DNA of 43,328 nt from Desulfobulbaceae bacterium (GTDB taxonomy: Bacteria; Desulfobacterota; Desulfobulbia; Desulfobulbales; VMSU01). Location: contig VMSU01000230.1 in the NCBI GenBank assembly GCA_013792005.1, positions 1 to 43,328 of the forward strand. Reading direction: 5' to 3'. The notes beneath the pieces are model-generated. The model was given only the letters and a program-made list of their open reading frames with translations. It did no database searches and had not been told where the DNA came from. Below are positions 14-33,448 of the stretch, piece by piece; the first letter of the stretch is position 1, and each line of letters begins with the position of its first letter. A program made the translations under genes and the position numbers.

Positions 14-1644
14 GTCGCTCCCCGCACGGGGAGCGTGGATTGAAACCAAAACCCCACTTCCAGGGCGTGTCAAATCTGCCGTCGCTCCCCGCACGGGGAG
101 CGTGGATTGAAACATCAGACACATAGTCACTAAGGGAAGCGATGACGGTCGCTCCCCGCACGGGGAGCGTGGATTGAAACTCCAACAAGCCAAATTGATC
201 TGAGCAACACTCCGTCGCTCCCCGCACGGGGAGCGTGGATTGAAACTTGTCATAACCTACCCCCTTCGCATCGCAACCAAGTCGCTCCCCGCACGGGGAG
301 CGTGGATTGAAACATTGTCACAATGAATCGGGGATCACGTACCGGGGTCGCTCCCCGCACGGGGAGCGTGGATTGAAACACCATCCCGTTTATAACAGAC
401 TATGGACGGATGGGTCGCTCCCCGCACGGGGAGCGTGGATTGAAACGACTCCAGCACCACGGTGGTCATGTCCCGCAGTGTCGCTCCCCGCACGGGGAGC
501 GTGGATTGAAACTCCCCTAGTGGGAGAGGGTTGGGGTGAGGGTGAGTCGCTCCCCGCACGGGGAGCGTGGATTGAAACCTCCGTGGTTAGGCCGGGTAGT
601 GATGGCCTTGGGCGTCGCTCCCCGCACGGGGAGCGTGGATTGAAACACGAGACGGTAGCAGGAACAACGGTGAATTACTGGTCGCTCCCCGCACGGGGAG
701 CGTGGATTGAAACGGACATTTGTGGAAACGTGGGTAGAGCCTGTGCGTCGCTCCCCGCACGGGGAGCGTGGATTGAAACCGATGGGAATGATGCTGGTGG
801 GTATGCTATGCGCGTCGCTCCCCGCACGGGGAGCGTGGATTGAAACTCCGCCTGTAGCTCCGCCTGTAGCTGCTGGATACGTCGCTCCCCGCACGGGGAG
901 CGTGGATTGAAACGAAACAGAGTACGCTGACGTGATTGAGGACCCTAGTCGCTCCCCGCACGGGGAGCGTGGATTGAAACCCTAAGAATACCCCGGAGAT
1001 CAACGCGATCTGGGGTCGCTCCCCGCACGGGGAGCGTGGATTGAAACATCTCCTCATGGTAAAACTCAGACTCAAAGTCGTGTCGCTCCCCGCACGGGGA
1101 GCGTGGATTGAAACAGGGATACACTCATACAAAGAAGGCGCTACAGCGTCGCTCCCCGCACGGGGAGCGTGGATTGAAACAACGAGGGATCGGCCGAACA
1201 ACGGAAAAAGTTAGGTCGCTCCCCGCACGGGGAGCGTGGATTGAAACAACCCAGCCAATCGCCCTGGCAGTGGTAACCATAGTCGCTCCCCGCACGGGGA
1301 GCGTGGATTGAAACTCCAGCGCGTCCAGAAAATTAATGGTATCAACAGGTCGCTCCCCGCACGGGGAGCGTGGATTGAAACAGAAGATGGATACCTCTCA
1401 ACCAGTGACAATAAACGTCGCTCCCCGCATGGGGAGCGTTGATTGAAACTTCGGAATTGTATTTATTTGCCTCACCTACGACGTCGCTCCCCGCAAGGGG
1501 AGCGTGGATTGAAACGGCCTATCACCAATCCCACGCAGGAAAGCGGCGGGTCGCTCCCCGCACGGGGAGCGTGGATTGAAACCTTCTGAGTGCCATGATC
1601 GATCAAGAACCGGATGTCGCTCCCCGCACGGGGGCGTAGATTGT
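14..1644 (+). CRISPR. CRISPR array, type I-C-like repeat, 24 full repeats plus a decayed terminal repeat
   Basis: A 33-bp repeat begins GTCGCTCCCC and ends GGATTGAAAC. It starts at 14, 81, 148, 214, 281, 347, 414, 480, 546, 614, 681, 747, 814, 881, 948, 1015, 1082, 1148, 1215, 1282, 1349, 1417, 1483 and 1550, with a decayed copy at 1616. The 24 spacers between them are 33-35 nt; bases 1-13 are the end of one more spacer. Each repeat can fold an 8-bp stem CGCTCCCC/GGGGAGCG around a GCAC loop. The ATTGAAAC end and the stem match the repeat class used by type I-C (Cas5-Cas8c-Cas7) systems. Decay at the right end (1417, 1483, 1616) marks the trailer, so the leader and cas genes should lie left of position 1. 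No cas gene is in the window, so the subtype rests on the repeat alone. Confidence 0.97.
1616..1644 (+). repeat. Decayed terminal CRISPR repeat
   Basis: The copy begins with the normal GTCGCTCCCCGCACGGGG, then has lost one A, carries a G-to-A change and loses the GAAAC end, running into unrelated sequence. The copies at 1417 (loop GCAT and a G-to-T in the 3' half) and 1483 (loop GCAA) are also variant, while the last full copy at 1550 is consensus. Decay at one end is the usual sign of the oldest, trailer side of an array. Confidence 0.9.
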
Positions 1645-1750
1645 GGAGCCCATCTGCTGTTCTACGGGTGTTCGATCTATTTTTATACCCAAGTAAAGCT
1701 TGCCGGAAAGAGTTGGACTTCCATAACGATTCAGGCTATCGTTTTGTCCC

Positions 1751-10117: not shown

Positions 10118-11698
10118 ATGTGTCAAGGTTTAGCCTTGCCCTTTTACGGGCATTCTTTACAAAATCCCTCTCTGCCAGCCCTTTTCGTTAGTGGAAAATT
10201 TTACTCGTATGGAGAACTCGGTGAGTTGGCGGCCACCATGGCCGCCCTGCTTGCCGACCCCCGTCAGGGACAGGTTGCGCGGGTTGGGGTCTTGGCCAGT
10301 CGATCGCTTCCGGCCTTTGCCGGCATCCTTGCCGCGTGCTGGGCTGGCGTCACCTTTGTGCCGTTGAATCCTAAGTATCCTGAAGAGCGGCTGGCGACTA
10401 TAATCAGGAATTCACAACTGAGCGCCATTGTCGTGGATGATGGAGGGTGCAAGGCTTTGACCGAGAAGGTGATGGCCTGCTGCCCTCCGCTATTCATCGG
10501 TCCCTGTATGGATGATCTGGCGCTTGGCGGCGTGGTGATTCAAGGTCGACAGACGCTGGCAAAGTATTCCCCGCTTCCCCCGGTGCAATTGCCCAGGGAG
10601 AAGATCGCCTATATCCTGTTCACCTCGGGAACTACTGGTGAACCGAAAGGGGTAATGGTGACCACGGCGAATGCGGCCCATTTTTTGACGATATCGCAGG
10701 AACGTTACCGGTTAATGGCCGATGATCGGGTATCCCAACAGTCGGAAATCACCTTTGATCATATCGCCTTTGATCTGTTTATGGCGTGGGGGGCTGGGGC
10801 GTCGGTCCATGTGGTGCCGGAAACCATGGTCATGGCGCCGGCGGAATTCATCAGAAAGCAGGAGTTGACGGTGTGGTTTGCCGTTCCTTCGGTGATCTCT
10901 TTCCTCAAAGGGATGAAACTGCTTAAACCAGGTATTTTTCCCACTTTACGGATATCGTTGTTTGCCGGAGAGCCATTGCCTAAGGAGTTGGCTGATGCCT
11001 GGCAGGAAGCTGCGCCAAACAGCAGGGTCGATAACCTGTATGGTCCCACGGAGGTGACAGTGGATTGCCTGTGGCAGTCGTACCAAGCGCCCTACGAAAT
11101 AACACCGAACCGGGGTGTTGTCGCTATTGGCAGGCCTTATGCCGGAATGCATGCTGCCATTGTTGATTCCGGAAATAAGTTTCTCGGACCTGGAGAGATC
11201 GGGGAACTTGCTGTTTCCGGGCCCCAGGTATCGGCCGGCTATTGGAATAATCCGGAGTTGACCGCCTTGCGATTTCCCCGGTTACAGCATCCTGAGCTTG
11301 GTGAAACTATCTGGTATTTAACCGGCGATCTTTCGTATCAGGATGCGACCGGGATTTTTCACTATCTGGGCCGGGTTGACAATCAGGTCAAAGTGCTGGG
11401 GCAGCGGGTCGAGTTGGAGGATGTGGAGTTTCATCTTCGGGCTGTGTGCCAATCCGATTCAGTTGCGGTAGTTGCCTGGCCGGTGCTGCATGGGACTGCT
11501 CAAGGGTTGATTGCCTTTGTGACCGATAGCGCTCTGGATCAGAAGCTCGTCAAAGAGGGACTTCGGCATCGGCTATTATCGTATATGATCCCTCGGCGGA
11601 TCGTTTGTCTTGCGCAACTCCCCTTAAATCTGAACGGAAAGGTCGACCGCAAGGCGCTGGTCGCCCTGCTTGAAGCGGAAAAGACACAGCATGGCTAG
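10118..11698 (+). CDS. AMP-forming adenylating ligase, DltA-like (NRPS adenylation-domain family)
   Basis: The 526-residue protein should activate a carboxylic or amino acid with ATP and load it onto the carrier protein encoded at 13151. Adenylation-domain motifs are complete and in order: YILFTSGTTGEPKGVMVT (P-loop, ~residues 165-182), NLYGPTEVTVDCLW, WYLTGDLSYQ, GRVDNQVKVLGQRVELEDVE and PLNLNGKVDRKAL with the C-terminal catalytic lysine. The layout most resembles DltA, the D-alanine:carrier ligase. The substrate cannot be read with confidence, since the specificity pocket would need alignment to known structures. Its stop overlaps the next gene's start by 8 nt (ATGGCTAG), so the two are translationally coupled. 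Confidence 0.88.
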   Translation: MCQGLALPFYGHSLQNPSLPALFVSGKFYSYGELGELAATMAALLADPRQGQVARVGVLASRSLPAFAGILAACWAGVTFVPLNPKYPEERLATIIRNSQLSAIVVDDGGCKALTEKVMACCPPLFIGPCMDDLALGGVVIQGRQTLAKYSPLPPVQLPREKIAYILFTSGTTGEPKGVMVTTANAAHFLTISQERYRLMADDRVSQQSEITFDHIAFDLFMAWGAGASVHVVPETMVMAPAEFIRKQELTVWFAVPSVISFLKGMKLLKPGIFPTLRISLFAGEPLPKELADAWQEAAPNSRVDNLYGPTEVTVDCLWQSYQAPYEITPNRGVVAIGRPYAGMHAAIVDSGNKFLGPGEIGELAVSGPQVSAGYWNNPELTALRFPRLQHPELGETIWYLTGDLSYQDATGIFHYLGRVDNQVKVLGQRVELEDVEFHLRAVCQSDSVAVVAWPVLHGTAQGLIAFVTDSALDQKLVKEGLRHRLLSYMIPRRIVCLAQLPLNLNGKVDRKALVALLEAEKTQHG

Positions 11699-13136
11699 GT
11701 CCGTCGTTTTCAGGATCATCCCGCCTATTGACACCTATCCCTCCTGTGTTGATCTTGCCCAAAAAATCACGGGCAAGGTGTTGATGATCGTTGTTTTTTC
11801 TTTCGGGTTGTTCCTGCATACCAGCACGTGGTTTTATACTTCGTCCGTTATCGCGGTGATGACCTTCTTGCCGCAGTTCAGGCCCCTGCTTCTGGTTGTT
11901 GCCGCCTTCGGCGGGTTGCTGCGGGGCAGGTGGTTGCCGGATTTTGCTTATCTTACCAAGGGAGATTTTGTTCTTCCCGGTGGAGTGTTTTTTAAACCGT
12001 TGATTGTCTTAGCAGTACTGGTATTATTTGCGATCTATTATCGGGCGGTCAGGCAGGGGAAGGGGAGATGGCTCGGCCTGCGGCCGATCCGGAATCTGCT
12101 GGTGGGGTATGTTGTCCTGATTGTGCTTGTTGCACAACTTCCGTCTCCAAGCCCTCTGGCGGTTGTCCTGTGGGCCTTTGTTATCGTCTTCGGCAAGTAT
12201 TTGTGGTTTTTTAATTATGCGCTGCTGGACCGAAACGCCAAGGATACTGCGCCGCTGGTGGTGCAGACCGGGCATTTTCTGCCATTTTGGGGTGGTTCGA
12301 TTGCCCCTTTTCCCAAGGGCGCTGCCTATCTGCGTAAAATTGAGGCAAAAACTCCTGCCGAGCTTGCCGTCTGTCAGCTCAAGGGGATTAAGTTGTTGTA
12401 TTGGGCCCTGGTCTTGACTGTCCTGCAACGACTGCTGGGGCAAGTTTTCTATGGAAGTCCCGGTGATTCCTATCTAGGGATCTCTTTTTCTCTGGTAATC
12501 CCATCCTTTTCCGCAGTACTTCATGGCAACCCGATCAATCCCTATCCGTGGCATCTGAACTGGTCCGCCCTGGTGGCCAGCTTTTTTATGAAGCTGGTGG
12601 GATTCTCCGTGTGGGGTCATGGGATCATCGCTTCGTGCCGGATGGCTGGCTACAACGCCCTTCGGAACACCTATAGTCCTTTGCGGTCCGTGACCATCGC
12701 TGAATTCTGGAACAGATATTACTATTATTTTAAAGAGTTGCTGGTTGAAAACTTTTTTTACCCCGCTTTTTTGCGGTACTGGAAAAAGACGCCTCGCCTG
12801 CGTTTATTTTTTGCGACCATGGCCGCGGCCGGATTTGGTAACGTTTTGTTTCATTTTCTTCGCGATATTGAGGTGATTATTGAACGAGGCCCATGGGATG
12901 CTTTTTTATCATTTCATGTCTATATGTTTTATGGGGTGATCTTGGGGACGGCCATCGGGCTTTCTCAGATCTTTGAGAACAAGAACAGGCAGGAGATGTC
13001 CTGGCTCAGGAAGAATATCATCAATCCATTCCTTGTCGTGGGCTTTTATTGTATATTGTCGATATTCGATGACCCGGACCGTTCCCTGACTATCTACGAT
13101 AATTTTGCGTTTTTGTTACGTCTCTTTACTTTTTAA
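11691..13136 (+). CDS. MBOAT-like membrane O-acyltransferase, DltB-like
   Basis: The 481-residue protein is strongly hydrophobic, with about ten likely membrane helices. The signature region is EFWNRYYYYFKELLVENFFYPAFLR followed by FGNVLFHFLRD. This matches the MBOAT pattern of an FW-x-R/W motif, a membrane segment ending in Y-x-P, and an embedded histidine (H388), the presumed active-site residue. DltB and relatives pass an acyl group from a carrier protein to an acceptor across the membrane. Placement between an adenylating ligase and a carrier protein supports this role. The ATG at 11691 overlaps the ligase stop; an in-frame TTG at 11670 lies inside the ligase gene and seems less likely. 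Similarity is by motif and context, so the MBOAT call is probable rather than certain. Confidence 0.75.
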   Translation: MARSVVFRIIPPIDTYPSCVDLAQKITGKVLMIVVFSFGLFLHTSTWFYTSSVIAVMTFLPQFRPLLLVVAAFGGLLRGRWLPDFAYLTKGDFVLPGGVFFKPLIVLAVLVLFAIYYRAVRQGKGRWLGLRPIRNLLVGYVVLIVLVAQLPSPSPLAVVLWAFVIVFGKYLWFFNYALLDRNAKDTAPLVVQTGHFLPFWGGSIAPFPKGAAYLRKIEAKTPAELAVCQLKGIKLLYWALVLTVLQRLLGQVFYGSPGDSYLGISFSLVIPSFSAVLHGNPINPYPWHLNWSALVASFFMKLVGFSVWGHGIIASCRMAGYNALRNTYSPLRSVTIAEFWNRYYYYFKELLVENFFYPAFLRYWKKTPRLRLFFATMAAAGFGNVLFHFLRDIEVIIERGPWDAFLSFHVYMFYGVILGTAIGLSQIFENKNRQEMSWLRKNIINPFLVVGFYCILSIFDDPDRSLTIYDNFAFLLRLFTF

Positions 13137-13150
13137 CCGGACTGATTGCC

Positions 13151-13396
13151 ATGCCTACGAAAGAAGCGTTACGGAATTTTTTGAAAGAACTGCTCGTTGA
13201 ATATGGCGAGACATCCGAATTCACCGATGACGCTTCGTTGCTCATCAGCGGTATTCTAGATTCGCTGGCGGTGTTGCGGATAGTGGTGTTTTTAGAACAG
13301 GAGTTCGGTCTGGATCTGTCCGACCAGGGCTTTGATCAGAATGATTTTGATTCGGTGGCCAGTATCATGCGGATGATTGAGGAGCGCTGTAGTTGA
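13151..13396 (+). CDS. Acyl/D-alanyl carrier protein, DltC-like
   Basis: The 81-residue acidic protein has the carrier-protein fold signature. GILDSLAVLRIVVFLEQEFGLDL contains the DSL motif, and S38 is the predicted 4'-phosphopantetheine attachment site. A carrier of this size placed 14 bp after an MBOAT-like gene and downstream of an adenylating ligase matches the dltA-dltB-dltC order. It could equally be a general acyl carrier for the same cassette. No dltD-like lipoprotein or thioesterase follows; the next gene, about 100 bp on, is an exported oxidoreductase. Confidence 0.88.
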   Translation: MPTKEALRNFLKELLVEYGETSEFTDDASLLISGILDSLAVLRIVVFLEQEFGLDLSDQGFDQNDFDSVASIMRMIEERCS

Positions 13397-13493: not shown

Positions 13494-14468
13494 ATGGTGC
13501 GATGCGATAAGTTTTCGAGAAGGACCTTTGTTGGCGGGGTGCTCAGCGCCGCAGCTGTTGCAGGGATTGGTCCTCAGGTTGCCAATCCTTTGACGGACCT
13601 TGTTGTGCAGGCAGCTCAATGTCCGGTAATGCCCAGCAGACCTCTGGGGCAGACTGGATACGATGTTAGGATTTTTAGTCTGGGGGGGCAGGCGACACTC
13701 GAAAAGCAAGGAACAGAGGCCGAGTCTCTTGCCATTATCAGTCGGGCGCTCGATCTGGGGGTTAATTACATCGACACTGCTGCGGCCTATGGAAATGGGC
13801 AAAGTGAACGGCATTTTGGGGCTGTTCTTAAATCACGCCGCAAGCAGGTCTTCCTGGCCTCGAAAACCCACTCCAAGTCGTACGATGGGTCCATGCGGCT
13901 CTTGGAACAGTCGCTCAAGAATTTGAATACCGACCATCTTGACCTGTGGCAGCTCCATAATGTCAGGACTCAAAGTGACCTTGATGCGATCTTTGCTGCG
14001 GATGGCGCGATTAAGGCTCTTGAGGAGGCCCGCGCTCAGAAGATGGTGCGATTTCTTGGTATTACCGGCCACTTCGATCCATTGATCCTGAAAAAGGCGC
14101 TCGAACAGTATCCATTCAACACCATCCTGATGCCCTTGAATGCTGCGGACAAGCATGAAAAGTCCTTCATTGATATTTTGTTACCTGTCGCGGTTCAGAA
14201 AGGAATGGGGGTCATCGGCATGAAAGTTCCGGCCCGAGGGCGCATCTTTCGGGAAAATGGGGTGGTGACGATGGAAACCGCGATGCGGTATGTGCTGACT
14301 CTTCCAGTGAGCTCCGTGATCATTGGCATATCAACTCTGGATGAACTGGAAGAGAATGTTCGGATCGCGGAAAAATTCGTGGCGATGACGCCTGAGGAAA
14401 TGCGGAAAACAGAAGAGTTGACTAAACCGTATTTCAAGGATGCCACCTGGTTTAAGCAACATTGGTAA
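13494..14468 (+). CDS. Tat-exported aldo/keto reductase
   Basis: The 324-residue protein begins with a twin-arginine signal, KFSRRTFVGG, followed by a hydrophobic stretch, so it should be folded in the cytoplasm and exported by Tat. The body is an aldo/keto reductase barrel: RPLGQTGYDVRIFSLGG, GVNYIDTAAAYGNGQSERHFG (catalytic D and Y), VFLASKTH (catalytic K) and LDLWQLHNV (catalytic H). Members reduce carbonyls with NADPH; some Tat-targeted relatives are of unknown substrate. The ATG at 13494 follows AGGAGGAGG at 13481-13489, a strong ribosome-binding site. It lies 97 bp after the carrier-protein gene on the same strand, so a functional link to the acyl-transfer cassette is possible but unproven. 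Confidence 0.93.
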   Translation: MVRCDKFSRRTFVGGVLSAAAVAGIGPQVANPLTDLVVQAAQCPVMPSRPLGQTGYDVRIFSLGGQATLEKQGTEAESLAIISRALDLGVNYIDTAAAYGNGQSERHFGAVLKSRRKQVFLASKTHSKSYDGSMRLLEQSLKNLNTDHLDLWQLHNVRTQSDLDAIFAADGAIKALEEARAQKMVRFLGITGHFDPLILKKALEQYPFNTILMPLNAADKHEKSFIDILLPVAVQKGMGVIGMKVPARGRIFRENGVVTMETAMRYVLTLPVSSVIIGISTLDELEENVRIAEKFVAMTPEEMRKTEELTKPYFKDATWFKQHW

Positions 14469-15055: not shown

Positions 15056-16789
15056 TTATGGCGAACCCGGCGAGTGATGGCCGTCGTTTACTCTCTGGCT
15101 GTGGCAGTTAATGCAGGTGCCAGCCGTGATGGCTACGGCCTTGGTGATCCCGTACAATTGAAAGTCCAGTTTAAGCCCGAAATAGGTGGGCTCATGGCAG
15201 GTGATGCACATCCGTGGATGAACCTGGAAAACGGTGTTGCCAGGGTGACAGCCGGTCGAACTGAGGCAGTTCGGTGCGCGGTCGACTTGGCCGACGTGGT
15301 CATTCGCTTTGAGGTGCAAGGTTACGTCGTCAGCGATGATCTGATGGCAGTTAATGCAGTCACCAGGCCCGTACTGAGCGGCCAGGCTGATCTTCGTCCC
15401 GAAAGAGCCATCGGCATTGGGGGTCATGTTGTGGCAGTGGGTACATTGGTTTTTGTGGATGTCGACGACGGTGTCGGTTTTGTTGTGGAAATGGCAGGCG
15501 TTGGTGCAGTTGAGCACGGTTTTGTCAACCTGGCCGGTATGATTGTTTTTGTTCTGATGAAAGTCGAAATAGTCTGCGCCATGGCATTCTCCGCAGTTGC
15601 CGTTTGCTGTTGGTGGGGTGAGGGTTGGCCAGACCAGCGGATCTTTGCGGAACGGGGCGCTGCTGCCGACTGTCTTCAGATCTGGCGGGCCACTGGCTGC
15701 GTGGCAGGCATTACAGTCAAATTGATGAATGCCTTCAACAACTTTCGTTTGGGTGTGGCAATTAACGCAGGAGGTCAGTTTGGCGATGAATTCGTCGTGG
15801 TCAGGGTAGTTCGGTTTGAATCCTTGGGCGATGGTGTGGCAGGATGTGCAATTGGAGCCATCGTTGTGTGAAGTCAGAGTGCCATCGTTTTTCCAGTAAT
15901 GAGTTTGGGTGTGGCACACCTGGCAGATGGCTTCTGTGGTGGCACCGCTGGCGCTATCGACAAGGCCGTCCTGAGAGTCGAAGAACTTCACACTCTTGGC
16001 GCCACTGTTTGGGGTTGCGATGCTGGATTTGACGAGCTGGCCATAGATGATGCCGAAATTGCTGCCGGTGTATTTGCCGGAATCAATCGGGTCGCTGCCG
16101 CTTTGGACCGTGATGGTTCCCTCGCCAAGGCCGGCTGCCCCGTTGGTAATCGCTGTTGTGGTCGAGGCGCTGATGATCTCATAAGTCTTTTCGCCGGTCG
16201 TGTATCCGAGGGAGATGAGCAGACCACGGCCAGTATTGCCTGATTTCTGACTCCAACGCTCGGTGTCCTGCCATGGAGCTTTTGCCGCAGCGTTGGTGAA
16301 GGTGATGGCAGTGGTGCCGTCATTGTTGTCGGTAATGGCGCCGATAGTTCCTTCTGCCAGGTAGAGACCGCCAGCTAAGGAGCCGTCACCAAAGGTAGCG
16401 GTGGCAGAGAGCCAGTTGAACTGGGCTTGGAGGTGGGGGTCGTGGCAGTCAATGCACTTGGTGCTCCCGTCCCCTAAAACAGTATTGTGGGAGTCCCCCA
16501 TGGAGAAGGCTGAGTGGGGGAGTTTGCGGAATTCCGAACCGCTGGCTCCGTGACATTTGTTGCAGACATCATCGGTGCGTCCGTCGTATTCCGCAGTGCC
16601 TGGAGTGGTAGGAGAAAATTGCCACCATAAAGAGTAGGAGTGGCATGAACTGCAGTGAACATCATGCGATTCATTGTGAGGGGCATCAAGGACTGATGTT
16701 GCATAGGCGCTTCCCGCTGCCAGCATGGCAGCCAGTAGTCCAGTCGTAGCTGCCCTGACGACTGGGATGAGTTTCCATTGGTTTTTCAT
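15056..16789 (-). CDS. Secreted multihaem c-type cytochrome (12 CXXCH plus two unusual haem-like motifs)
   Basis: The 577-residue protein starts with a Sec signal peptide (MKNQWKLIPV..., cleavage near SAYA-TS), so it acts outside the cytoplasmic membrane. Twelve CXXCH motifs are present: CSSCH, CNKCH, CIDCH, CQVCH, CTSCH, CVNCH, CNACH, CGECH, CTHCH, CINCH, CITCH and a second CINCH. Two more are non-canonical: CTNACH (CX3CH) and CLSSTGCH (CX5CH). About 165 residues with no haem motif separate the third and fourth haems and look like a beta-rich insert. Such proteins carry electrons in anaerobic respiration or extracellular electron transfer; the partner is unknown. The ATG at 16789 has GGAG 10 nt upstream; a TTG six codons earlier is possible. 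It lies downstream of the PHP-like gene on the same strand. Confidence 0.93.
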   Translation of the reverse strand: MKNQWKLIPVVRAATTGLLAAMLAAGSAYATSVLDAPHNESHDVHCSSCHSYSLWWQFSPTTPGTAEYDGRTDDVCNKCHGASGSEFRKLPHSAFSMGDSHNTVLGDGSTKCIDCHDPHLQAQFNWLSATATFGDGSLAGGLYLAEGTIGAITDNNDGTTAITFTNAAAKAPWQDTERWSQKSGNTGRGLLISLGYTTGEKTYEIISASTTTAITNGAAGLGEGTITVQSGSDPIDSGKYTGSNFGIIYGQLVKSSIATPNSGAKSVKFFDSQDGLVDSASGATTEAICQVCHTQTHYWKNDGTLTSHNDGSNCTSCHTIAQGFKPNYPDHDEFIAKLTSCVNCHTQTKVVEGIHQFDCNACHAASGPPDLKTVGSSAPFRKDPLVWPTLTPPTANGNCGECHGADYFDFHQNKNNHTGQVDKTVLNCTNACHFHNKTDTVVDIHKNQCTHCHNMTPNADGSFGTKISLAAQYGPGDCINCHQIIADDVTLHLKANDHVGQVDRAPNCLSSTGCHPGNTVFQVHPRMCITCHEPTYFGLKLDFQLYGITKAVAITAGTCINCHSQRVNDGHHSPGSP

Positions 16790-16862
16790 TTTTTCTTGGC
16801 TCCGCAATTAGTAGGGATTTTAATCAAGATAACGGCGGCTACCAGCTAAATATTGTTGCACT

Positions 16863-19016: not shown

Positions 19017-19165
19017 AAGCCTTTAGTTAAATTAAAGGTAACTGGGATTTCCCCTCATTGGATAACGCTAAATTTTAACGGTTGATGGTAATAGGTGTAA
19101 TAATTTTTTGGAAATAAAAGGGAGAAAATGGATTTCCATATTAAGCATTCTTGCAAGGAGATTTT

Positions 19166-20539
19166 ATGAAATTAGACTGGGATATGACTATTCTAGTAGT
19201 GGATGATACTGGTTTCATGCGCAAAATTATTGCAGATATTTTGCAAAAAATTGGCTTCAAAAACATTGTTGTAGCGGTAGATGGATTGGATGCCATTGAA
19301 AAGTTAAAAGAGCATCGGGTTGGTCTGATCCGCTCTGACTGGAACATCCCTAATATGGATGGGCTGGCGTTACTTAAGCATGTCCGACAGGATGAGCAGA
19401 ATAAAGATGTGCTTTTCATCATGGCAACTGCCCAGGCTGACAAGACGAATATCTCGATTGCTATGGAGGCGGGCGCTAATTCCCATATCGCCAAGCCTTT
19501 TGATGAAGGGCAGATAAAACTGAAGATTGACGAGATCTTCGGGATCACGACCGAAACGGCCACAATTCAATCTCAACCTCGGGTGGTGGCTGGCAAGGTC
19601 AAAATGAAGATTGGTCATATCCAGATTACCGATCACTTGGCGCTTGGTGTTTTAAATCATCAAATTAATACCGGAGAGGTCACGCCAAAGTATTTTGAGC
19701 TTGAGTCTCTCTGTATGGCGGGTTGGAACCCGGTCCAGGATACGCTGGAGAATGGACAGGTTGATGGCGCCTTTGTGCTGGCGCCAATCGCCATGGATCT
19801 CTTTGGGTTTGGGGTGGATATTCGCCTGATCCTGCTGGCTCATAAAAACGGTAGTATCTTTGTCCGTTCGCGCAATACCCCATTCTTGGATTATGCCTCT
19901 GAGGCCGAATTTTATAAGTATAAGGCTGTTAATATCCCGCACAAGATGTCGATCCATCATCTGCTGGCCCATCAATACTTAAGCGGCTTGGGTCTTAAGC
20001 CTGGGGTGCCGGGCGCCGGCAAGGCAATCAATGTTCGCTTCGAGGTGGCGCCTCCCATTCAGATGCCTGCGATCATGAAGGAAAATGATGAAGTGGGGGG
20101 ATTTATTGTTGCCGAGCCGATTGGCTCAAGCGCGATCAAGGCCGGCATCGCTGATCTGCAATTTATCTCCTCGTCGCTCTGGCCCGAGCATCCCTGCTGT
20201 GTAGTGGCCATGCGCAATGAGTTTATTCAACAATATCCTGATGCGGTCCATGAATTTACCGCCTTGCTCATGCAGGCAGGGAAATATGCCGAGCAAAATA
20301 AGGCTATAGCGGCAGAAATCGCGGTGCCGTTTCTTGATCCGCACAAGACGCTTGGTCTGCAGCAAGCGGTAATCCAAAAAGTTTTGGAAGATCCTCAGGG
20401 GATCACGATGCGCGATCTGTATCCGGTGCTTGAGGATCTCGATAAGATTCAGCGGTATATGTTCGACAGTATGGGGGTCGGCAAGATCATCGATCTGGAA
20501 AAACTGGTTGACTTGAAATTTGCCCGCGCGGCGGGGTGA
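19166..20539 (+). CDS. CheY-like receiver fused to an NrtA/SsuA-like substrate-binding domain
   Basis: The 457-residue protein joins two parts rarely seen together. Residues 1-~125 are an intact receiver: acid pair D13/D14, phospho-acceptor D58 (in SDWNIPNMDG), T88 and K110 (AKPF). Residues ~145-440 resemble the substrate-binding proteins of nitrate/sulfonate/bicarbonate ABC transporters: KIGHIQITDHLALGVL, NGQVDGAFVLAPIAMDLFG and LWPEHPCCVVAMRNEFIQQYPD. There is no signal peptide, and the receiver must be cytoplasmic, so the binding domain is intracellular. I infer a ligand-responsive CheY-like output or phosphate sink. The ATG at 19166 follows AAGGAG at 19155-19160. It is the first gene of the chemosensory locus; the next gene follows after 25 bp. 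The ligand is unknown. Confidence 0.85.
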   Translation: MKLDWDMTILVVDDTGFMRKIIADILQKIGFKNIVVAVDGLDAIEKLKEHRVGLIRSDWNIPNMDGLALLKHVRQDEQNKDVLFIMATAQADKTNISIAMEAGANSHIAKPFDEGQIKLKIDEIFGITTETATIQSQPRVVAGKVKMKIGHIQITDHLALGVLNHQINTGEVTPKYFELESLCMAGWNPVQDTLENGQVDGAFVLAPIAMDLFGFGVDIRLILLAHKNGSIFVRSRNTPFLDYASEAEFYKYKAVNIPHKMSIHHLLAHQYLSGLGLKPGVPGAGKAINVRFEVAPPIQMPAIMKENDEVGGFIVAEPIGSSAIKAGIADLQFISSSLWPEHPCCVVAMRNEFIQQYPDAVHEFTALLMQAGKYAEQNKAIAAEIAVPFLDPHKTLGLQQAVIQKVLEDPQGITMRDLYPVLEDLDKIQRYMFDSMGVGKIIDLEKLVDLKFARAAG

Positions 20540-20564
20540 TCATGATTTCCTGTAATCGAAAAAA

Positions 20565-22214
20565 ATGACGCGGACGACTGCGGTCAATAGTCGGTATGCC
20601 TTGGAAGAAGTTCTTGCCAATTTGGACAGTCGCGACCTGATCAAGGCTCGAATTGTTCTGGGACATTTTTCGCATCTTGAGGAGGGGGCGCAACGTCGGA
20701 TTCTTTTTGAATTGAACAGACGTGACGATCAGATGTGTTTGGCTATGCTGGTGTATCTCATCTCGACAAATCAGCAGGCCCGTGAGAAGTATTCGGATAT
20801 CGCGGAAAGCATTCTGGCCAAGGTTCTGGATGAGCCCCAAGACCTCTTGAGTCTTTTGACCTCCTGCCGTGGTGTGGAGATGTGCTACTGTATTGAGCTT
20901 GTCGGTAAAATTCGCTTACGCGAGGCAGTGCCGGAACTCATTCAACTGTTGGCGAGCCACTCCGACCCAGTTATTCTCAAGGCGGCTATTGTAGCTCTCG
21001 GCGTCATCGGCAGTCCTGACGCGGTAAATGCCATCACCGGAATCATCTTGTCAGGTAGTGATTCTTTGATTTTGCCTGCGATTCAGGCCTTAGGCCAGAT
21101 AGCTTCACCAACCGCCATGCAACGCCTGGTGGAATGTCTTGGCACAGACGAGGCCATCGACATGATCATTTTGGATATTTTTGCCGCTATTCAGGATGAC
21201 GTGGCCCTTGAGATTCTCAACAAGACTCTTCAGTCACGCTCCGCTGTTTTGCGGAATTACAGTAAGAGTAAATTGATCGCCATTGGCAACAAGGCTGTGC
21301 CGATTTTGATTGCCAATCTTGCCTCGCCCGACTCGGATTTGCAGATTCACTCCTTAAACGCGTTGTTGGAAATTGGTGATGATAGTGCAGTCATGCCTAT
21401 CCGTAAGCTGATCACCACTCAACCTCATAACGCCAATGTCAGATTTGCCGCCTTTGAGGCCTTGGCCAATCTGCCGGTGCGCAAAGGCGATTACATCTGG
21501 GCCAGCGGACTTCTTGACTCGGAAAGCAATATCCGGTTAGCCGCAGCCAAGGCTATCGAAAGAACTCTTGACGATGTTCTCTCCGCTGGTATCAGGAATA
21601 TGGTACGAAATCAGGACCAGGAGGCAGTTCAGGTCGTGAGGGCCGTCTTGGATAGTCAGTCGAAGAACATCGTCCTTAACCTCATTCGTCACGAGATTGG
21701 TGTCGATCTGGTTATCGACTACCTTACCTCCCAAGCTCATCAGGATATCAGGGCGTTTTTTTTCCAGGTCCTGTTGGAGGCTGGCTATGCCGATTTGGCT
21801 CAAGTTGTCATCGACTCTCAAAAGCAACAAGGTGTCAAAGAGAGCATCAAGGTTTGTGCTGTCGATGATTCGCGGATGATCCTCAGTGTCTACCGCAGTG
21901 TCTTGAATGAGTTGGGCTATGAGTCGGAGTTGTTTACCAATCCAGAGGTAGCCCTTGACTGGCTCAAGATAAATCAGGTCGGATTTGTCTGCACGGATCT
22001 TAATATGCCGGAGATGACCGGGATCGATCTGACCCGAGCGTTACGAAAAATATTTAACAAAGAGCAGTTGCCGATCATCATGGTCACCACCCAGAATGAT
22101 CGGCAGGAGCATGGAGAGGCGATTGCGGCGGGCGTTAATTGTATTGCAGCCAAGCCGTTTGATGCCAAAAGCTTGCAGGCGGCAATAGCGACTATTCATC
22201 ATGTTTCGCCGTAG
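20565..22214 (+). CDS. HEAT-repeat protein with C-terminal receiver domain
   Basis: In this 549-residue protein residues ~80-400 are repeated pairs of amphipathic helices of HEAT type, for example REAVPELIQLLASHSDPVILKAAIVALGVIG and VPILIANLASPDSDLQIHSLNALLEIGD. HEAT solenoids bind other proteins. Residues ~428-547 are an intact receiver with acid pair VDDS, phospho-acceptor D478 in CTDLNMPEMTG, and K in AAKPF. No output enzyme or DNA-binding domain is seen, so phosphorylation probably changes what the solenoid binds. It lies 25 bp after the receiver/binding-protein gene and 90 bp before the PP2C regulator. The ATG at 20565 has no strong ribosome-binding site. The partner protein is unknown. 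Confidence 0.85.
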   Translation: MTRTTAVNSRYALEEVLANLDSRDLIKARIVLGHFSHLEEGAQRRILFELNRRDDQMCLAMLVYLISTNQQAREKYSDIAESILAKVLDEPQDLLSLLTSCRGVEMCYCIELVGKIRLREAVPELIQLLASHSDPVILKAAIVALGVIGSPDAVNAITGIILSGSDSLILPAIQALGQIASPTAMQRLVECLGTDEAIDMIILDIFAAIQDDVALEILNKTLQSRSAVLRNYSKSKLIAIGNKAVPILIANLASPDSDLQIHSLNALLEIGDDSAVMPIRKLITTQPHNANVRFAAFEALANLPVRKGDYIWASGLLDSESNIRLAAAKAIERTLDDVLSAGIRNMVRNQDQEAVQVVRAVLDSQSKNIVLNLIRHEIGVDLVIDYLTSQAHQDIRAFFFQVLLEAGYADLAQVVIDSQKQQGVKESIKVCAVDDSRMILSVYRSVLNELGYESELFTNPEVALDWLKINQVGFVCTDLNMPEMTGIDLTRALRKIFNKEQLPIIMVTTQNDRQEHGEAIAAGVNCIAAKPFDAKSLQAAIATIHHVSP

Positions 22215-22304
22215 AGCTATCGATTTGTCTCTAGTCTCAAGGGGGTAATTTCTCTCCTGGGCATTATTGAAGTTCTCAAGTGAATTGAGATTCTGGAATA
22301 AAAA

Positions 22305-23855
22305 ATGCGCAATAATTATACGATATTGATCATTGATGATGTCAGTTTAAACGTCCTGCTGTTGAAAGGGATATTGGAAGAGATAGGGTTGTCCGTTCTT
22401 TCGGCCATGAATGGGCCAGACGGCCGCCGGATTGCCGAAGCCGAGCAGCCGGATCTTATTTTACTTGATATCATGATGCCTGGCGAAGACGGGTTTGAAA
22501 CCTGCAATAAGCTGAAGGCCAATGCCGCGACAATTGACATCCCGATAATCTTTATTTCAGCTCTTGACGATCAGGCGAGTGTCGTTAAAGGACTCTCTAT
22601 TGGCGGCTGGGACTATATCTGCAAGCCATTCAACATGGCTGAGGTCCAGGCCCGGGTCAAAAACTATCTTCGGTTGCAGTCTGCTTATAAAATGGTGATT
22701 GAAGAGCAGTCCAAACGCCTGCGGCAGATCTTTGATGCCCAGCAGGCCATTTTAGTCTCTCCTGATGCTGTTTCCGATGCCCAATTTGGGGTTTACTATC
22801 TGCCGGTGAATGAAGCTGGGGGAGATTTTTATGATGTCATGCAAATCAGTGATGATCTGTTCGGTTATTTTGTTTCCGACATCAGTGGCCATGACCTTGG
22901 CACCTCATTTGCCACTTCAGCATTAAAAGCTCTGATCAGGCAAAATTCATCCCAGCTCTATTCTACTTCCGAAACGATTCGGATCATTAATAAGATTCTC
23001 CTTACGCTCTTTACTGACGGACAGCATCTTACCGCGGTCTATGGCATTCTTGACAAGAAAAACATGACCTTCAGTCTGGTCAATGCCGCCCATCCTCCAA
23101 TCCTCTATCTGCCGGTGGCCGGCGATCCTGTTTGGTTGCCGGCTAATAGTGATGTCATTGGTGTCTTTCAAGATGCGGTTTTTGAAACGCAGGTCATTAG
23201 TGTCCGGGAGGGGGATCGATTGATGTTATATACCGATGGTTTGATCGAAACCTTCTCCGGAAGGGCGATGAGCCGGGAGGAAGGGTATCAGTTGCTTGAG
23301 GCTGCCGGTAGCGCCACTACGGACTGTCCTTGCCAGGAGGCGGTGAATGATGTTGTCAGGACCATGTTTGCTGATGGCCGGAAGGCAGAGGATGATGTCC
23401 TCCTGCTTGGGATTGATATCAGCGTGTTTCGGACTCAAGTGACAAAAACAGGCTTTACGGTCATTTTGCCCGCGACTTTTAAGGCAATCGACTCGGTTGC
23501 AGAGAAAGTACAGAAATATCTCAATGCTCATGAGCTCTGTGAATCTGCCTTTGGAATTGTGTTAGGGTGTCGGGAGGCTTTGACCAATGCCGTTCGTCAT
23601 GGCTCGCAGGGTGACCCCAACAAGAGGGTGACCTTTGAGCTTGCCCGGCGAGAAGCGTTGATAGTGATACAGGTTACAGACCAAGGACCGGGTTTTCACT
23701 GGCAGCAAGCATTGCACCGGGCGGCAAATATTTCTGACGAGGGTGGGCGTGGTTTTGCCATATTGCATCAATATTTTGATACAGTTGAGTTTAATCCCTC
23801 TGGGAATAAAATTGTGTTGTCGGTAAAGGGGGCTGGTCAGCCCGCTCGCTACTAG
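22305..23855 (+). CDS. Receiver-PP2C phosphatase-HATPase partner-switching regulator (CrsR/HsbR-like)
   Basis: The 516-residue protein has three parts. The receiver (1-~125) has D11/D12, D55 in LLDIMMPGEDG and K in CKPF. A SpoIIE/RsbU-type PP2C phosphatase (~150-370) has metal-binding motifs NEAGGDFYDV, VSDISGHDLGTS, LYTDGLIE and EDDVLLLG. A C-terminal GHKL kinase-like ATPase (~385-510) has an N-box GCREALTNAVRHG and DQGPGF. This order is that of Shewanella CrsR and Pseudomonas HsbR, which dephosphorylate or phosphorylate a STAS antagonist and so control an anti-sigma or other target. The STAS partner is the next gene. Receiver phosphorylation by the locus kinases would couple chemoreceptor input to this switch; that is inference. 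The ATG at 22305 has a poor upstream Shine-Dalgarno. Confidence 0.9.
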   Translation: MRNNYTILIIDDVSLNVLLLKGILEEIGLSVLSAMNGPDGRRIAEAEQPDLILLDIMMPGEDGFETCNKLKANAATIDIPIIFISALDDQASVVKGLSIGGWDYICKPFNMAEVQARVKNYLRLQSAYKMVIEEQSKRLRQIFDAQQAILVSPDAVSDAQFGVYYLPVNEAGGDFYDVMQISDDLFGYFVSDISGHDLGTSFATSALKALIRQNSSQLYSTSETIRIINKILLTLFTDGQHLTAVYGILDKKNMTFSLVNAAHPPILYLPVAGDPVWLPANSDVIGVFQDAVFETQVISVREGDRLMLYTDGLIETFSGRAMSREEGYQLLEAAGSATTDCPCQEAVNDVVRTMFADGRKAEDDVLLLGIDISVFRTQVTKTGFTVILPATFKAIDSVAEKVQKYLNAHELCESAFGIVLGCREALTNAVRHGSQGDPNKRVTFELARREALIVIQVTDQGPGFHWQQALHRAANISDEGGRGFAILHQYFDTVEFNPSGNKIVLSVKGAGQPARY

Positions 23856-23943
23856 ACGAACTGTCGTAGGGTAAATGGCCGATGGTTCAGTGTGCGCCAT
23901 CGCCTTTCATATCATAGACGAAGACGAAAAAGAGGATTATGCC

Positions 23944-24243
23944 ATGAGTGAAATTGTACAAGACGGTGGTTCTGTCACTATCAAACCCGGCAGTGATATT
24001 GTCGCCTCTGGGGTAGACAAACTGAAAAAGGAACTGAAAGGGGTTGTGGAAGGTGGTCTTTCCTCGTTGATAATTGATATGTCCGAAGTCAGGATGCTTG
24101 ATTCTATGGGAATCGGCTTGTTGATTGCCACCTACAACTCTTTGAAGAAGAATGGGACGCCGATGGAGTTGATCCATGTCTCCGCTGATATTGCTACATT
24201 GCTCAAGAATATGCGGTTGAATCAGTACTTCAACATCTCCTGA
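23944..24243 (+). CDS. STAS-domain anti-sigma factor antagonist (HsbA/SpoIIAA-like)
   Basis: The 99-residue single-domain protein matches SpoIIAA/RsbV. LIIDMSEVRMLDSMGIGLLIATYNSLKK holds the conserved phospho-serine S54 in the D-S-x-G motif. Such proteins are switched by serine phosphorylation: the kinase part of a partner-switching regulator inactivates them and the PP2C part reactivates them. The gene immediately upstream encodes exactly such a PP2C-kinase protein. The ATG at 23944 begins MSEIVQDGG; an upstream in-frame start would add 23 residues without homology. No anti-sigma or sigma factor lies in the window, so the final target (sigma factor, cyclase or CheA array) is unknown. Confidence 0.93.
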   Translation: MSEIVQDGGSVTIKPGSDIVASGVDKLKKELKGVVEGGLSSLIIDMSEVRMLDSMGIGLLIATYNSLKKNGTPMELIHVSADIATLLKNMRLNQYFNIS

Positions 24244-24286
24244 GCCGTTTTCTTATGAAAAATGTAATCAAGGAGGTACGCGCGGT

Positions 24287-27200
24287 ATGACTGCAATAGT
24301 CGAAGATGAAACCTTGCAGATGTATATCGAGGAATCGAAAGAGCATCTAGACACCATTGAAAGCGACTTGCTGGCGATTGAGCAGCAAGGCGAAAATATA
24401 GATGAGGCCTTGGTCAACAAGGTGTTTCGGGCCGCCCACTCCATCAAGGGCGGGGCAGGTTTCCTTGGTCTTAATACCATCAAGGAGCTTGCTCATAAGA
24501 TTGAGAACGTGCTGGATATGATCCGTAATTACCAGATGGTTCCAATCCCTGATGTGGTCAATATCATTTTGGTGGCCTTTGATTTTCTGGGTGAATTGTT
24601 GAATGATGCGGTTCATAGTGGTGACAAGGATATCTCGTCACATGTCGAGGCCTTGCAGGCTCTGGCCACGGCCAATCTCAATGCTGAAGAGAAAAGATTG
24701 GCGACTCAGACCGAGGAGATTCTGGCAGATGATCTTTTGACCACATTTACTCTGACTGATTTTGATCTGAATCAGGCTCGTCGTGGTGGAAAAAATGTCT
24801 ATATCCTCAAGTTTGATTTGATCCGGGACGTGCAGCGTAAGAATCAGACACCCTTCGCTCTGATGATGCAGCTGGATAGTCTGGGGTTGGTTTTGGATTT
24901 AAAGATTGGCATTGCCTCGGTTGGTGATCTGGATTCGGCTGAAATCTCTTCCGCTATTCCGATGTATGTCCTCTATGCCTCTGCTATTGAAGAAGATCTG
25001 ATCGGCACAGTGCTTGATTTGGATAAAGAAGATATCCGCTTGATTTCCATAGTTGAAAGGGCGGAGTCAAATGGGCAGGGAGAACCGGAGTTACATGATG
25101 CCGTTGACTCCATGGAGGTCTCGATGGGTGAGCCGCCTGAACAGAAAGAGGTAGATCATCAACTGCAGGAAGAGATTAGGCCGGAAAAAAGAGCTGTTGT
25201 CCAGGAGAGTGATAGTCAGTTCGGTAAGAAGCCGCTCAGTACTAAGGTCAAATCTGCGGAAAGCGGGGCCGATTCGCTTCGGGTCAGCGTCGGGGTGCTC
25301 GACCAGTTGATGAACCGGGCAGGCGAGTTGGTGCTGGCCAGGAATCAACTCCTGCAGGCCCTCTCCCAGGGAGATCGGCAAAGTGTTAAGGTGGCAGGTC
25401 AGAGGATCAGCCTGGTCACCTCGGAGCTGCAGGAAACCATCATGCTGACCAGGATGCAGCCGGTGGGCAATATTTTTAATAAATTTCCACGGTTGGTACG
25501 TGATTTGGCCAGGAGCCTGGGCAAGGAGATGGAACTTTCCCTGGAAGGCAACGAAGTGGAGATGGATAAGACCATTATTGAAGGATTGGGTGATCCTCTG
25601 ACCCATCTGGTGCGTAACTCTGCCGATCACGGCATTGAGATGCCGGATCACCGCAAGGACCATGGTAAGTCTATCAGCGGTCGTATTGTCTTGCGTGCGT
25701 TTCATGAGTCGGGCCAGGTTATTATTGAGATTGAAGACGATGGCAAGGGTCTTGATACTGACAAGCTGGCCGCCAAGGCCCTTGAAAAAGGCATCATTAA
25801 CGAGCAGCAGCTTGATGCCATGACCGATGCAGAAAAGATGAACCTGATCATGCTGCCCGGGTTTTCCACCGCCGAGAAGGTTACCGACGTCTCTGGCCGC
25901 GGGGTGGGTATGGATGTGGTCAAGACCAATCTGGACAAACTGGGTGGTCAGGTTGAAATTCAATCCCAAGTCGGCAAAGGCACCGTGGTCCGCATCAAGC
26001 TGCCCCTGACGCTTGCCATTATTCCCAGCCTCTTGGTGTCGAGCTGCGGCCAGAGGTTTGCTTTGCCCCAGGTCAATGTCGGCGAACTCTTGCGCATCCC
26101 GGCCAATCAGATCCGTGAAAAGATCGATAAGGTAGGCGGAGCGGATGTCCTTACCCTGCGCGGTGAGTTGATTCCGTTACTTCAGTTAAACAATGTGCTT
26201 GGCTTGCAACAAACCTACTTTGATGCAAAGTTGGGTGTCATTCGTGAAGACCGGCGGCAGCGCTTGATTGACGATCGCCTCATCAATCAGGAGGGGGAGA
26301 GTGTCTCCCCTTCGCCGGTAGCTAAGGAGGAACATTCAGTAGGTCTTGAGATGCCTGAGCGGCGGGGCAGCCGGTCAAGCGATATCTGTATCGTCGTTTT
26401 GCAGACTGGCGCCTTCAAGTATGGCATGGTGGTGAACGAGGTCCACGACACTATTGAAATTGTAGTCAAGCCCTTAGGGCGACACTTGAAAAACTGCGAC
26501 GTCTATGCCGGCGCCACTATCATGGGTGATGGCCGGGTCTCCTTGATTCTGGATGTGGCAGGCCTTGCCCGTCATGCCGATTTGCGCTCGCTCTCCGATG
26601 CCGAGAAAAAGGCCCATCAAGAACTTAAGGGCGCAAGCGAGGAATCGACCAGACAGTCGCTCCTGCTCTTCAGGAATGGCGCTGAAGAGCATTGCGCAGT
26701 CCCCTTACGCTTAGTCTTGCGTGTGGAGCAGATCAAGACCTCCGATATCGAGATCAAGGGCGGCAAAAAGGTTATTCAGTACCGGGGCGGCAGCCTGCCG
26801 GTGTTTGCCTTGGAAGAGGTGGCGAGCGTTGAGATGCTGGAAGAGTCCGACAAGCTGGCGGTGCTTTTGTTTGTGATTGGCGGCCATGAGGTAGGATTGT
26901 TGGCGGTACCGCCGCTTGATGTCATAGAAGTAGACCTGGTGGTTGATGAATCAACTCTGCGCCAGACCGGCATCAGCGGTTCTGCTATCATTCAGGGCAA
27001 GACCACGCTGCTCGTTAATATCTTTGAGGTGATTTATGCCTTGAAGCCTGACTGGCAGCAGCATGACACGACTATCACCAACTCGGCAGGGGGAGCGGCT
27101 GCTTCGTCAATTCTTCTGGTTGAGGACTCTCAGTTTTTCCGTTCTCAGGTAAAACATTTTATTGAAGATGCGGGGTACCGGGTCATTGAGGCGGAAGATG

Positions 27201-27469
27201 GGGTCGAGGCCTGGGCGATTCTGGAAAAGCGTGCGACTGAAATCGGCTTGGTTATCACCGATATTGAGATGCCCAACATGAACGGTTTTGAACTGACTTT
27301 TAAGATCAAAAACGATCCACGCTTCAGCCATCTTGAGGTAATCGCTCTGACTTCGCTGGCTGGGGAGGAGGATGTGGCCAAGGGCAAAAAGGTCGGCATC
27401 GACGAGTATCAGGTGAAGTTGGACCGTGATAATCTGATTCAGAGTGTCGCGGCCCGGATGCCACGGTGA
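24287..27469 (+). CDS. cheA: CheA-type chemotaxis histidine kinase with second CheW-like and receiver domains
   Basis: The 1060-residue cytoplasmic kinase has domains in this order. First is an N-terminal HPt with phospho-acceptor H51 in AAHSIKGGAGF, then a ~200-residue middle region. A dimerisation helix pair follows (SVGVLDQLMNRAGELVLARNQLL). The GHKL ATPase has GDPLTHLVRNSADHGI, DDGKGLD and SGRGVGMDVVK. Then come a CheW-like P5 domain (~590-780), a second CheW-like segment (~790-925) and a receiver (~940-1058) with phospho-acceptor D in VITDIEMPNMNG. E. coli CheA is about 650 residues with one CheW-like domain and no receiver. The added receiver may act as a phosphate sink or competitor. 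AAGGAGG lies 10 nt before the ATG at 24287. It follows the STAS gene by 43 bp. Confidence 0.95.
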   Translation: MTAIVEDETLQMYIEESKEHLDTIESDLLAIEQQGENIDEALVNKVFRAAHSIKGGAGFLGLNTIKELAHKIENVLDMIRNYQMVPIPDVVNIILVAFDFLGELLNDAVHSGDKDISSHVEALQALATANLNAEEKRLATQTEEILADDLLTTFTLTDFDLNQARRGGKNVYILKFDLIRDVQRKNQTPFALMMQLDSLGLVLDLKIGIASVGDLDSAEISSAIPMYVLYASAIEEDLIGTVLDLDKEDIRLISIVERAESNGQGEPELHDAVDSMEVSMGEPPEQKEVDHQLQEEIRPEKRAVVQESDSQFGKKPLSTKVKSAESGADSLRVSVGVLDQLMNRAGELVLARNQLLQALSQGDRQSVKVAGQRISLVTSELQETIMLTRMQPVGNIFNKFPRLVRDLARSLGKEMELSLEGNEVEMDKTIIEGLGDPLTHLVRNSADHGIEMPDHRKDHGKSISGRIVLRAFHESGQVIIEIEDDGKGLDTDKLAAKALEKGIINEQQLDAMTDAEKMNLIMLPGFSTAEKVTDVSGRGVGMDVVKTNLDKLGGQVEIQSQVGKGTVVRIKLPLTLAIIPSLLVSSCGQRFALPQVNVGELLRIPANQIREKIDKVGGADVLTLRGELIPLLQLNNVLGLQQTYFDAKLGVIREDRRQRLIDDRLINQEGESVSPSPVAKEEHSVGLEMPERRGSRSSDICIVVLQTGAFKYGMVVNEVHDTIEIVVKPLGRHLKNCDVYAGATIMGDGRVSLILDVAGLARHADLRSLSDAEKKAHQELKGASEESTRQSLLLFRNGAEEHCAVPLRLVLRVEQIKTSDIEIKGGKKVIQYRGGSLPVFALEEVASVEMLEESDKLAVLLFVIGGHEVGLLAVPPLDVIEVDLVVDESTLRQTGISGSAIIQGKTTLLVNIFEVIYALKPDWQQHDTTITNSAGGAAASSILLVEDSQFFRSQVKHFIEDAGYRVIEAEDGVEAWAILEKRATEIGLVITDIEMPNMNGFELTFKIKNDPRFSHLEVIALTSLAGEEDVAKGKKVGIDEYQVKLDRDNLIQSVAARMPR

Positions 27470-27618
27470 ATGAAGGGAGGATGTGCTTTGCTTGTCTACC
27501 GAATCTTATATAAACCATAGAGAAGAAGTTCTCTTGAAAATAGAAACGGTTTGCCGGGGCCTCCATGTCTTCGGCAGCAATTAACAGTTTGCGATTCAAA
27601 CAAAATGGGAGAATGGTT

Positions 27619-29289: not shown

Positions 29290-29323
29290 GGTGGGTGTTC
29301 TGGTAACTCTCAGCTTACACTTT
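29281..29323 (+). terminator. Hairpin overlapping the chemoreceptor stop codon
   Basis: AAAGTGTAAG at 29281-29290 includes the receptor's last codons and its TAA. It pairs perfectly with CTTACACTTT at 29314-29323 across a 23-nt loop, and TTAAAG follows. The stem is A/T-rich and the U-run is short, so it may be a weak or partial terminator, or simply 3'-end protection. Confidence 0.4.
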
Positions 29324-29390
29324 TAAAGGGACGCCCTCCCTGGTTCCTTTGGGCTCTGCTTGGAGAACGAGAGCGGTGCTTGTGCATTGC

Positions 29391-29506
29391 TCCCTGAACA
29401 GAGTCGATTAATATAAGGGCGGTCCTTGAGTGGAACCTGATTTGCAAAGGCGGTGCTGAGCGGAGCCGATTTGTAAGGGTGGTCCCTGAGCGGAGCCGAA
29501 GGGCGG
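29391..29506 (+). repeat. Degenerate tandem array of ~30-bp units upstream of cheW
   Basis: Four head-to-tail units lie at 29391-29422, 29423-29453, 29454-29482 and 29483-29506 (32, 31, 29 and 24 bp). They share a consensus core close to TCCCTGAGCGGAGCCGAtTT and a GGGCGG end. The core is also present, inverted, at 4892-4912. The array fills most of the receptor-cheW gap and ends 23 bp before the cheW ATG. Confidence 0.7.
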
Positions 29507-29529
29507 CAATCAACACATGGGAGAAGGGT

Positions 29530-29982: not shown

Positions 29983-30058
29983 GGTTTAAGTTGTCGTGTT
30001 TTGGTCTGTTAGGAACATGAGGACAGAGAAGGCAAGGGATCTCCATTTCGTAATCACT

Positions 30059-30087: not shown

Positions 30088-30123
30088 CTAAAGACCAAAA
30101 TATCCTACTTAAGGAACAACTAC

Positions 30124-33441: not shown

Positions 33442-33448
33442 AGGTGGC

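Follow-up and report, generated by a model that had tools for sequence, protein, structure and literature searches.

We analyzed contig VMSU01000230.1 of the Desulfobulbaceae bacterium assembly GCA_013792005.1, a stretch of 43,328 nucleotides (the window) that carries three tightly packed genes for an adenylating ligase, a membrane protein and a carrier protein. The initial annotation described them as a dltABC-like acyl-transfer cassette, without dltD, in a Gram-negative-looking genome. The open reading frames (ORFs), their A-B-C order (ligase, membrane protein, carrier), the overlap, the gap and the two residues singled out there (H388 and S38) were all confirmed on the forward strand:

10118-11698, + strand: ligase gene, 526 aa, a stand-alone amino-acid adenylation enzyme of the nonribosomal peptide synthetase (NRPS) type
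11691-13136, + strand: membrane protein gene, 481 aa, a predicted MBOAT-fold acyltransferase with a catalytic-type His388 and no C-terminal FxYxxF shuttle motif
13151-13396, + strand: carrier gene, 81 aa, a stand-alone phosphopantetheine carrier with attachment site Ser38

The first two genes overlap by 8 nt (11691-11698), the ATG of the membrane protein at 11691 lying within the end of the ligase gene. Homologues of the membrane protein start at the matching methionine, and the numbering that follows from this start makes the histidine H388. A gap of 14 bp separates the membrane protein gene from the carrier gene, in which Ser38 lies within an LDSL motif. Scans for promoters and terminators gave no clear site, promoter-like matches being about as many as in shuffled sequence. 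The host is Gram-negative, as had been supposed, and a maker of lipid A by its LpxC. The class of the ligase, the predicted fold of the membrane protein, the linkage of the three genes and the missing shuttle are established by computation, and the earlier description of an acyl or aminoacyl transfer cassette of Dlt-like architecture, with teichoic acid an unlikely target, is upheld.

Ligase class, predicted substrate pocket and carrier

The ligase matches the Pfam family AMP-binding (PF00501, E 7.5e-66), passes the NCBIfam model for the amino acid adenylation domain (TIGR01733, 327.7 bits against a cut-off of 317.4) and is the only ligase of the NRPS-type amino-acid adenylation class across the whole genome. 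It is not a DltA, because it scores well under the curated cut-offs (TIGR01734, 230.3 against 559.85 bits; NF003417, 240.9 against 476 bits), and DltA structures rank far lower in the PDB search than the closest sequences, which are LgrA A2 (in linear gramicidin synthase A, adenylation domain number two) and AlmE. The match to AlmE (4oxi) has an E value of 7.9e-77 with the ligase and 3.4e-116 in the family profile search, making AlmE one of the two or three best stand-alone PDB ligases and the top one among these for the family profile. LgrA A2 activates glycine. AlmE is likewise a glycine-activating enzyme (see also PMC12930378).

The ten specificity positions, which predict the amino acid weakly, were read by motif anchoring and correspond in the window ligase to residues 214, 215, 218, 254, 281, 283, 307, 315, 316 and 508. 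They give the pocket code D-H-F-F-L-A-L-V-D-K (DHFFLALVDK), which is the same in the three nearest relatives. In GrsA numbering, Asp235 and Lys517, by which the alpha-amino acid is held, are kept in 45/45 aligned cassette ligases, and the remaining eight positions are lineage-dependent. Other cassette ligases read DFLNVGLVSK or DFHNIGLVFK, for comparison with the threonine code DFWNIGMVHK; the Magnetococcales cassette ligase reads DAYEIGSICK, presumably an ornithine- or lysine-like code judging by those published, and further codes occur in other lineages. The window code agrees at 6/10 positions with the published serine code DVWHLSLVDK (PMC12283262). The predicted type of substrate is firm, an alpha-amino acid and not a fatty or aryl acid. 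For the window lineage our best guess would be a small or hydroxylated amino acid, for example serine, and the amino acid seems to differ between lineages, the identities suggested by the pocket codes being weak predictions.

The carrier matches PF00550 (PP-binding) narrowly, with 21.8 bits against the Pfam cut-off of 20.8, and all of its matches to the NCBIfam carrier models are under the cut-off, including those to the DltC models (NF003464, 32.5 against 68 bits; TIGR01688, 20.3 against 52.35 bits). The best of them is to the ornithine-lipid acyl carrier protein model NF052616 (OlsHI), a name that we rejected for this carrier given the score of 44.5 against 130 bits and the finding that OlsH needs no carrier (PMC12493201). 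OlsH is a GH3-like enzyme and OlsI an alpha/beta hydrolase (PMC12493201), and enzymes of these types were not seen in the cassette.

A predicted DltB-like MBOAT fold

Searches of Pfam, NCBIfam, PHROGs and PDB sequences gave no match for the membrane protein. The Pfam MBOAT family PF03062, which marks a sequence family and not a fold, matches neither the window protein nor any of the 66 family members, and the DltB model TIGR04091 has no match in the window protein and weak ones in 16/66 relatives (best 2.3e-6). Because the sequence libraries gave no match, a comparison of folds was needed. The AlphaFold model, for which an alignment of the 66 relatives was the input, has a mean predicted local distance difference test score (pLDDT) of 92.5 and a predicted template modelling score (pTM) of 0.90, and its closest solved structure is DltB (Foldseek E 2e-4). 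In VIA-align 2 the model aligns with DltB 8jem over 368 residues at 4.0 A (Z 21.9) and with 6bug at Z 21.5; the next structural matches, PORCN, MBOAT7, HHAT and LPCAT3, are all MBOATs, and unrelated folds score clearly lower. A profile-profile comparison of the membrane family with 15 canonical bacterial MBOATs returned a remote similarity with a probability of 97%.

H388 is invariant in 66/66 aligned sequences, in which the other invariant residues include R64, P132, W172, P206, R317, R325, Y346, K348, E349 and R371. It aligns with the invariant histidine of the canonical MBOATs (His321 of L001, another MBOAT from the same genome), and we take it as the putative counterpart of DltB His336. 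Where DltB has its second active-site histidine, His289 (PMC11035591), the window protein has Tyr344. The initial annotation had called the protein MBOAT-like and named failure against MBOAT profiles as grounds for refuting its reading. The profiles are indeed silent, yet the predicted fold is that of DltB, and together with the profile-profile similarity and the weak DltB matches among relatives it identifies the membrane protein, as modelled, as an MBOAT-fold acyltransferase.

The acyl-tyrosine shuttle is missing throughout the family

In the Dlt and Pat systems, as recent work shows, the MBOAT acylates the tyrosine of a C-terminal FxYxxF motif, which belongs either to DltX or to the MBOAT, and this tyrosine supplies the acyl group to an SGNH enzyme (PMC12148441). 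The motif occurs in 15/15 canonical MBOATs, L001 among them, versus 0/66 members of the membrane family. The alignment between the model and DltB extends as far as the C-terminus and the last helix (residue 476 with DltB 412), and therefore there are no extra C-terminal helices that could bear a shuttle. No DltX-like microprotein with FxYxxF was found beside the cassettes. DltX (PF12459) and DltD (PF04914) are both absent from the genome, the Bacillus and Lactococcus controls being positive, and DltD is above the cut-off in 0/38 other cassette genomes. The lack of dltD noted earlier is thus real, but it is not one operon's loss: since the motif is absent from the 66 sequences and DltX and DltD are absent as well, the missing dltD is a family trait that accompanies the lack of the shuttle, and not the sign of a broken operon.

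Distribution and conservation as a unit

In a scan of species genomes, with loci selected for their similarity to the membrane protein and not sampled at random, we found 77 loci in Pseudomonadota, Acidobacteriota, Nitrospirota, Verrucomicrobiota, Myxococcota and Desulfobulbales. Almost all loci on sufficiently long contigs hold the ligase, the carrier and the membrane protein together. Counting amino-acid-type ligases only, the triad is present in 43 loci and in five arrangements: A-B-C in 25, C-B-A in 7, B-C-A in 5, B-C with A on the opposite strand in 5, and A-C-B in 1, the last being a locus that holds several membrane paralogues. The recurrence of this triad, seen dozens of times, is not due to chance and points to one functional unit. 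The pairwise distances of the three proteins are correlated (r 0.81-0.88 across 40 loci; at most 0.19 in shuffles), which fits joint inheritance of the unit. The survey of neighbourhoods proposed in the initial annotation shows that, among the relatives of the window, no further gene is conserved beside the cassette. Occurrence is patchy, with 7/194 genomes of the order carrying it.

The tree of the membrane family has two deep clades, that of the window and a second one whose loci mostly have acyl-CoA-ligase-like ligases, with a Magnetococcales branch (joined by one Desulfobulbaceae sequence) that has amino-acid ligases. In L060, L071, L076, L078, L079, L086 and L092 of the second clade, the ligase is acyl-CoA-ligase-like and a methylisocitrate-lyase/phosphoenolpyruvate-mutase-like gene follows the carrier; many second-clade loci also have PF00884 membrane phosphotransferase-like genes. 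This clade possibly places a different acyl group on a different acceptor.

Several variants of the locus were observed. In Acidobacteriaceae (L030, L031, L032, L043 and L051) the carrier is followed by an extra stand-alone protein in which an AMP-binding_C-like frame encloses an S-adenosylmethionine methyltransferase domain. This hints at methylation in trans of the amino acid on the carrier. One deltaproteobacterial metagenome-assembled genome has several tandem paralogues of the membrane family (L070:5923-11861). In plasmid records we found ligase relatives accompanied by carriers, but no membrane-protein relative. On Solidesulfovibrio plasmids (L131:6001-8592 and L132:5941-8532) a related ligase and carrier are accompanied by a 241-aa hypothetical protein where the MBOAT would be, near genes for CDP-glycerol glycerophosphotransferase and phosphocholine cytidylyltransferase. 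A Pseudochrobactrum plasmid (L130:5908-8637) has a ligase, a carrier and a 282-aa hypothetical protein without an MBOAT, and the code of its ligase, DLHMICIVIK, is close to the DLHMICIVVK of Rhizobium cassettes.

Proposed mechanism, acceptor and alternatives

We consider it fairly probable that the cassette is a self-contained aminoacyl transferase, in which an alpha-amino acid would pass from the carrier to the MBOAT and directly onto a membrane acceptor, probably a lipid. The ligase would adenylate the amino acid and load it onto the phosphopantetheine arm of the carrier, which would then bind the MBOAT from the cytoplasmic side, in the way that DltC docks on DltB, so that the aminoacyl thioester could enter a tunnel ending at His388. 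The MBOAT would finally move the aminoacyl group directly onto a hydroxyl or amine group on an acceptor located in the membrane, with neither an acyl-tyrosine shuttle nor an SGNH transferase of the Dlt, Pat or Alg type. Relay-free MBOATs of this kind exist: LPCAT3, DGAT1, PORCN and HHAT take a lipid or protein acceptor at the histidine directly. As a self-contained unit without a conserved partner, the cassette should act on something common to all hosts, and a membrane lipid fits best. The acceptor would most likely be a phospholipid, a glycolipid or lipid A, the last being included as LpxC is present in the genome and the host makes lipid A.

A number of points weigh against this interpretation. 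The acceptor is reached by elimination, and no neighbouring gene names it. An unlinked SGNH protein outside PF04914 could accept the group from a residue other than the tyrosine. The pocket was read from motif-anchored positions with their weak predictive value, and it is without structural support, the AlphaFold model of the ligase being poor (pLDDT 60.6, from a shallow alignment of seven sequences) and set aside for that score. The window carrier barely exceeds the Pfam cut-off, and the correlation of distances is also expected from plain co-inheritance or common descent.

Among the alternatives, the cassette may be a divergent Gram-negative Dlt system, which would send D-alanine or another amino acid through the MBOAT to a periplasmic relay that escaped detection, and then to lipopolysaccharide or another envelope glycan. 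The three shared functions, the A-B-C order and DltB as the nearest solved fold would all agree with this, as would the known Gram-negative dltBAC of Dickeya with its role in polymyxin resistance (PMC3544676). We nevertheless regard it as unlikely, because the ligase, the carrier and the MBOAT each fall below the Dlt cut-offs, DltX, DltD and the shuttle motif are absent, and the pocket differs widely among lineages.

A special case of direct transfer to a lipid would be an AlmEFG-like pathway, with the amino acid placed on lipid A or its acyl chain and the MBOAT replacing the LPLAT-type AlmG. To this we give a lower chance again, with the rank of AlmE among the PDB ligases and the presence of LpxC in its favour. 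Some loci also lie near PF00884 phosphotransferase-like genes of the phosphoethanolamine-transferase kind (CptA-type in L022, L025 and L028), and we read these as weak hints of envelope phosphates; such loci are few among the relatives of the window and partly close kin, and the window itself has none. Least probable of the three, and quite doubtful, is the synthesis of a small natural product, either secreted or bound to the membrane, in which the MBOAT would use the amino acid on the carrier to esterify a small alcohol, an amine or a fatty derivative. Relatives of the ligase and carrier do sit in natural-product clusters without an MBOAT, occurrence is patchy and the Acidobacteriaceae loci add their methyltransferase-domain protein, but no other biosynthetic gene is conserved beside the cassette.

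Direct aminoacyl transfer to a membrane lipid can also be proposed in a wider form. We suggest, more tentatively than for the window alone and as a possibility that we hold open, that the family may be a widespread, undescribed class of aminoacyl-lipid synthases, in which an NRPS-type ligase and a carrier supply an MBOAT of DltB fold that has no shuttle and would place lineage-specific serine-, threonine- or ornithine/lysine-like amino acids directly onto a membrane lipid. On our reading the cassette shows that the Dlt-type principle, by which an MBOAT receives an amino acid from a carrier, occurs across Gram-negative phyla as a self-contained three-gene module without the tyrosine shuttle, a feature at present regarded as general among the MBOAT acylation systems of bacteria. 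If true, such a module would allow tRNA-independent tuning of surface charge or the making of unusual amino-lipids, by an aminoacyl-lipid route that dispenses both with the tRNA required by MprF and with a periplasmic transferase, and it would offer a simple model of a bacterial MBOAT meeting its acceptor directly.

Other features of the window

14-1650: CRISPR array, at least 24 copies of GTCGCTCCCCGCACGGGGAGCGTGGATTGAAAC at a spacing of 66-68 nt
307-843: open frame, an artefact of the CRISPR array
13494-14468: Tat-type (twin-arginine translocation) aldo/keto reductase, a genuine gene downstream of the cassette and outside the conserved unit
15056-16807, - strand: multihaem c-type cytochrome-like protein, rich in CxxCH motifs
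19151-38855, + strand: large chemotaxis-like gene cluster

The initial annotation had drawn attention to the Tat-exported aldo/keto reductase, which is present but is an unrelated neighbour. This gene, glnS and other neighbours were rejected as partners of the cassette because no relative keeps them.

Relation to known systems

We found no description of the cassette in the literature, most subscription journals lying outside the search. It shares with teichoic acid D-alanylation by DltA-DltB-DltC(-DltX-DltD) an adenylating ligase, a stand-alone carrier, a DltB-fold MBOAT with a catalytic histidine and often the gene order. It differs from Dlt in having no DltD, DltX or FxYxxF, in carrying Tyr344 where DltB has H289, in a ligase that by the cut-off is not DltA, in its variable substrate pockets and in its Gram-negative hosts; the cassette is not a Dlt operon. 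Among Gram-negatives, the closest precedent in function is the dltBAC of Dickeya dadantii (with pbpG/dltD), likened here by description and not by DltB sequence, in which dltABC-type genes are linked to polymyxin resistance (PMC3544676). Searching the order that includes Rheinheimera for a genuine DltB gave matches under the cut-off only. PatA/PatB and the AlgI-type MBOAT-SGNH systems likewise bring the MBOAT superfamily into Gram-negatives, with remote profile similarity to the cassette, but they carry the C-terminal shuttle hexapeptide (15/15) that the cassette MBOATs do not have, and they use acyl-CoA (PMC12148441). AlmE-AlmF-AlmG of Vibrio cholerae, which places glycine on lipid A, is similar in its sequence-related amino-acid ligase, its separate carrier and its Gram-negative host; its transferase AlmG is an LPLAT-domain protein (PMC3783018), whereas that of the cassette is an MBOAT, and no LPLAT match was obtained among the adjoining ORFs scanned. 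By the tests made the cassette is a member of neither the Dlt nor the Alm system, resembling DltABC as far as the MBOAT and AlmEF in the ligase and the host.

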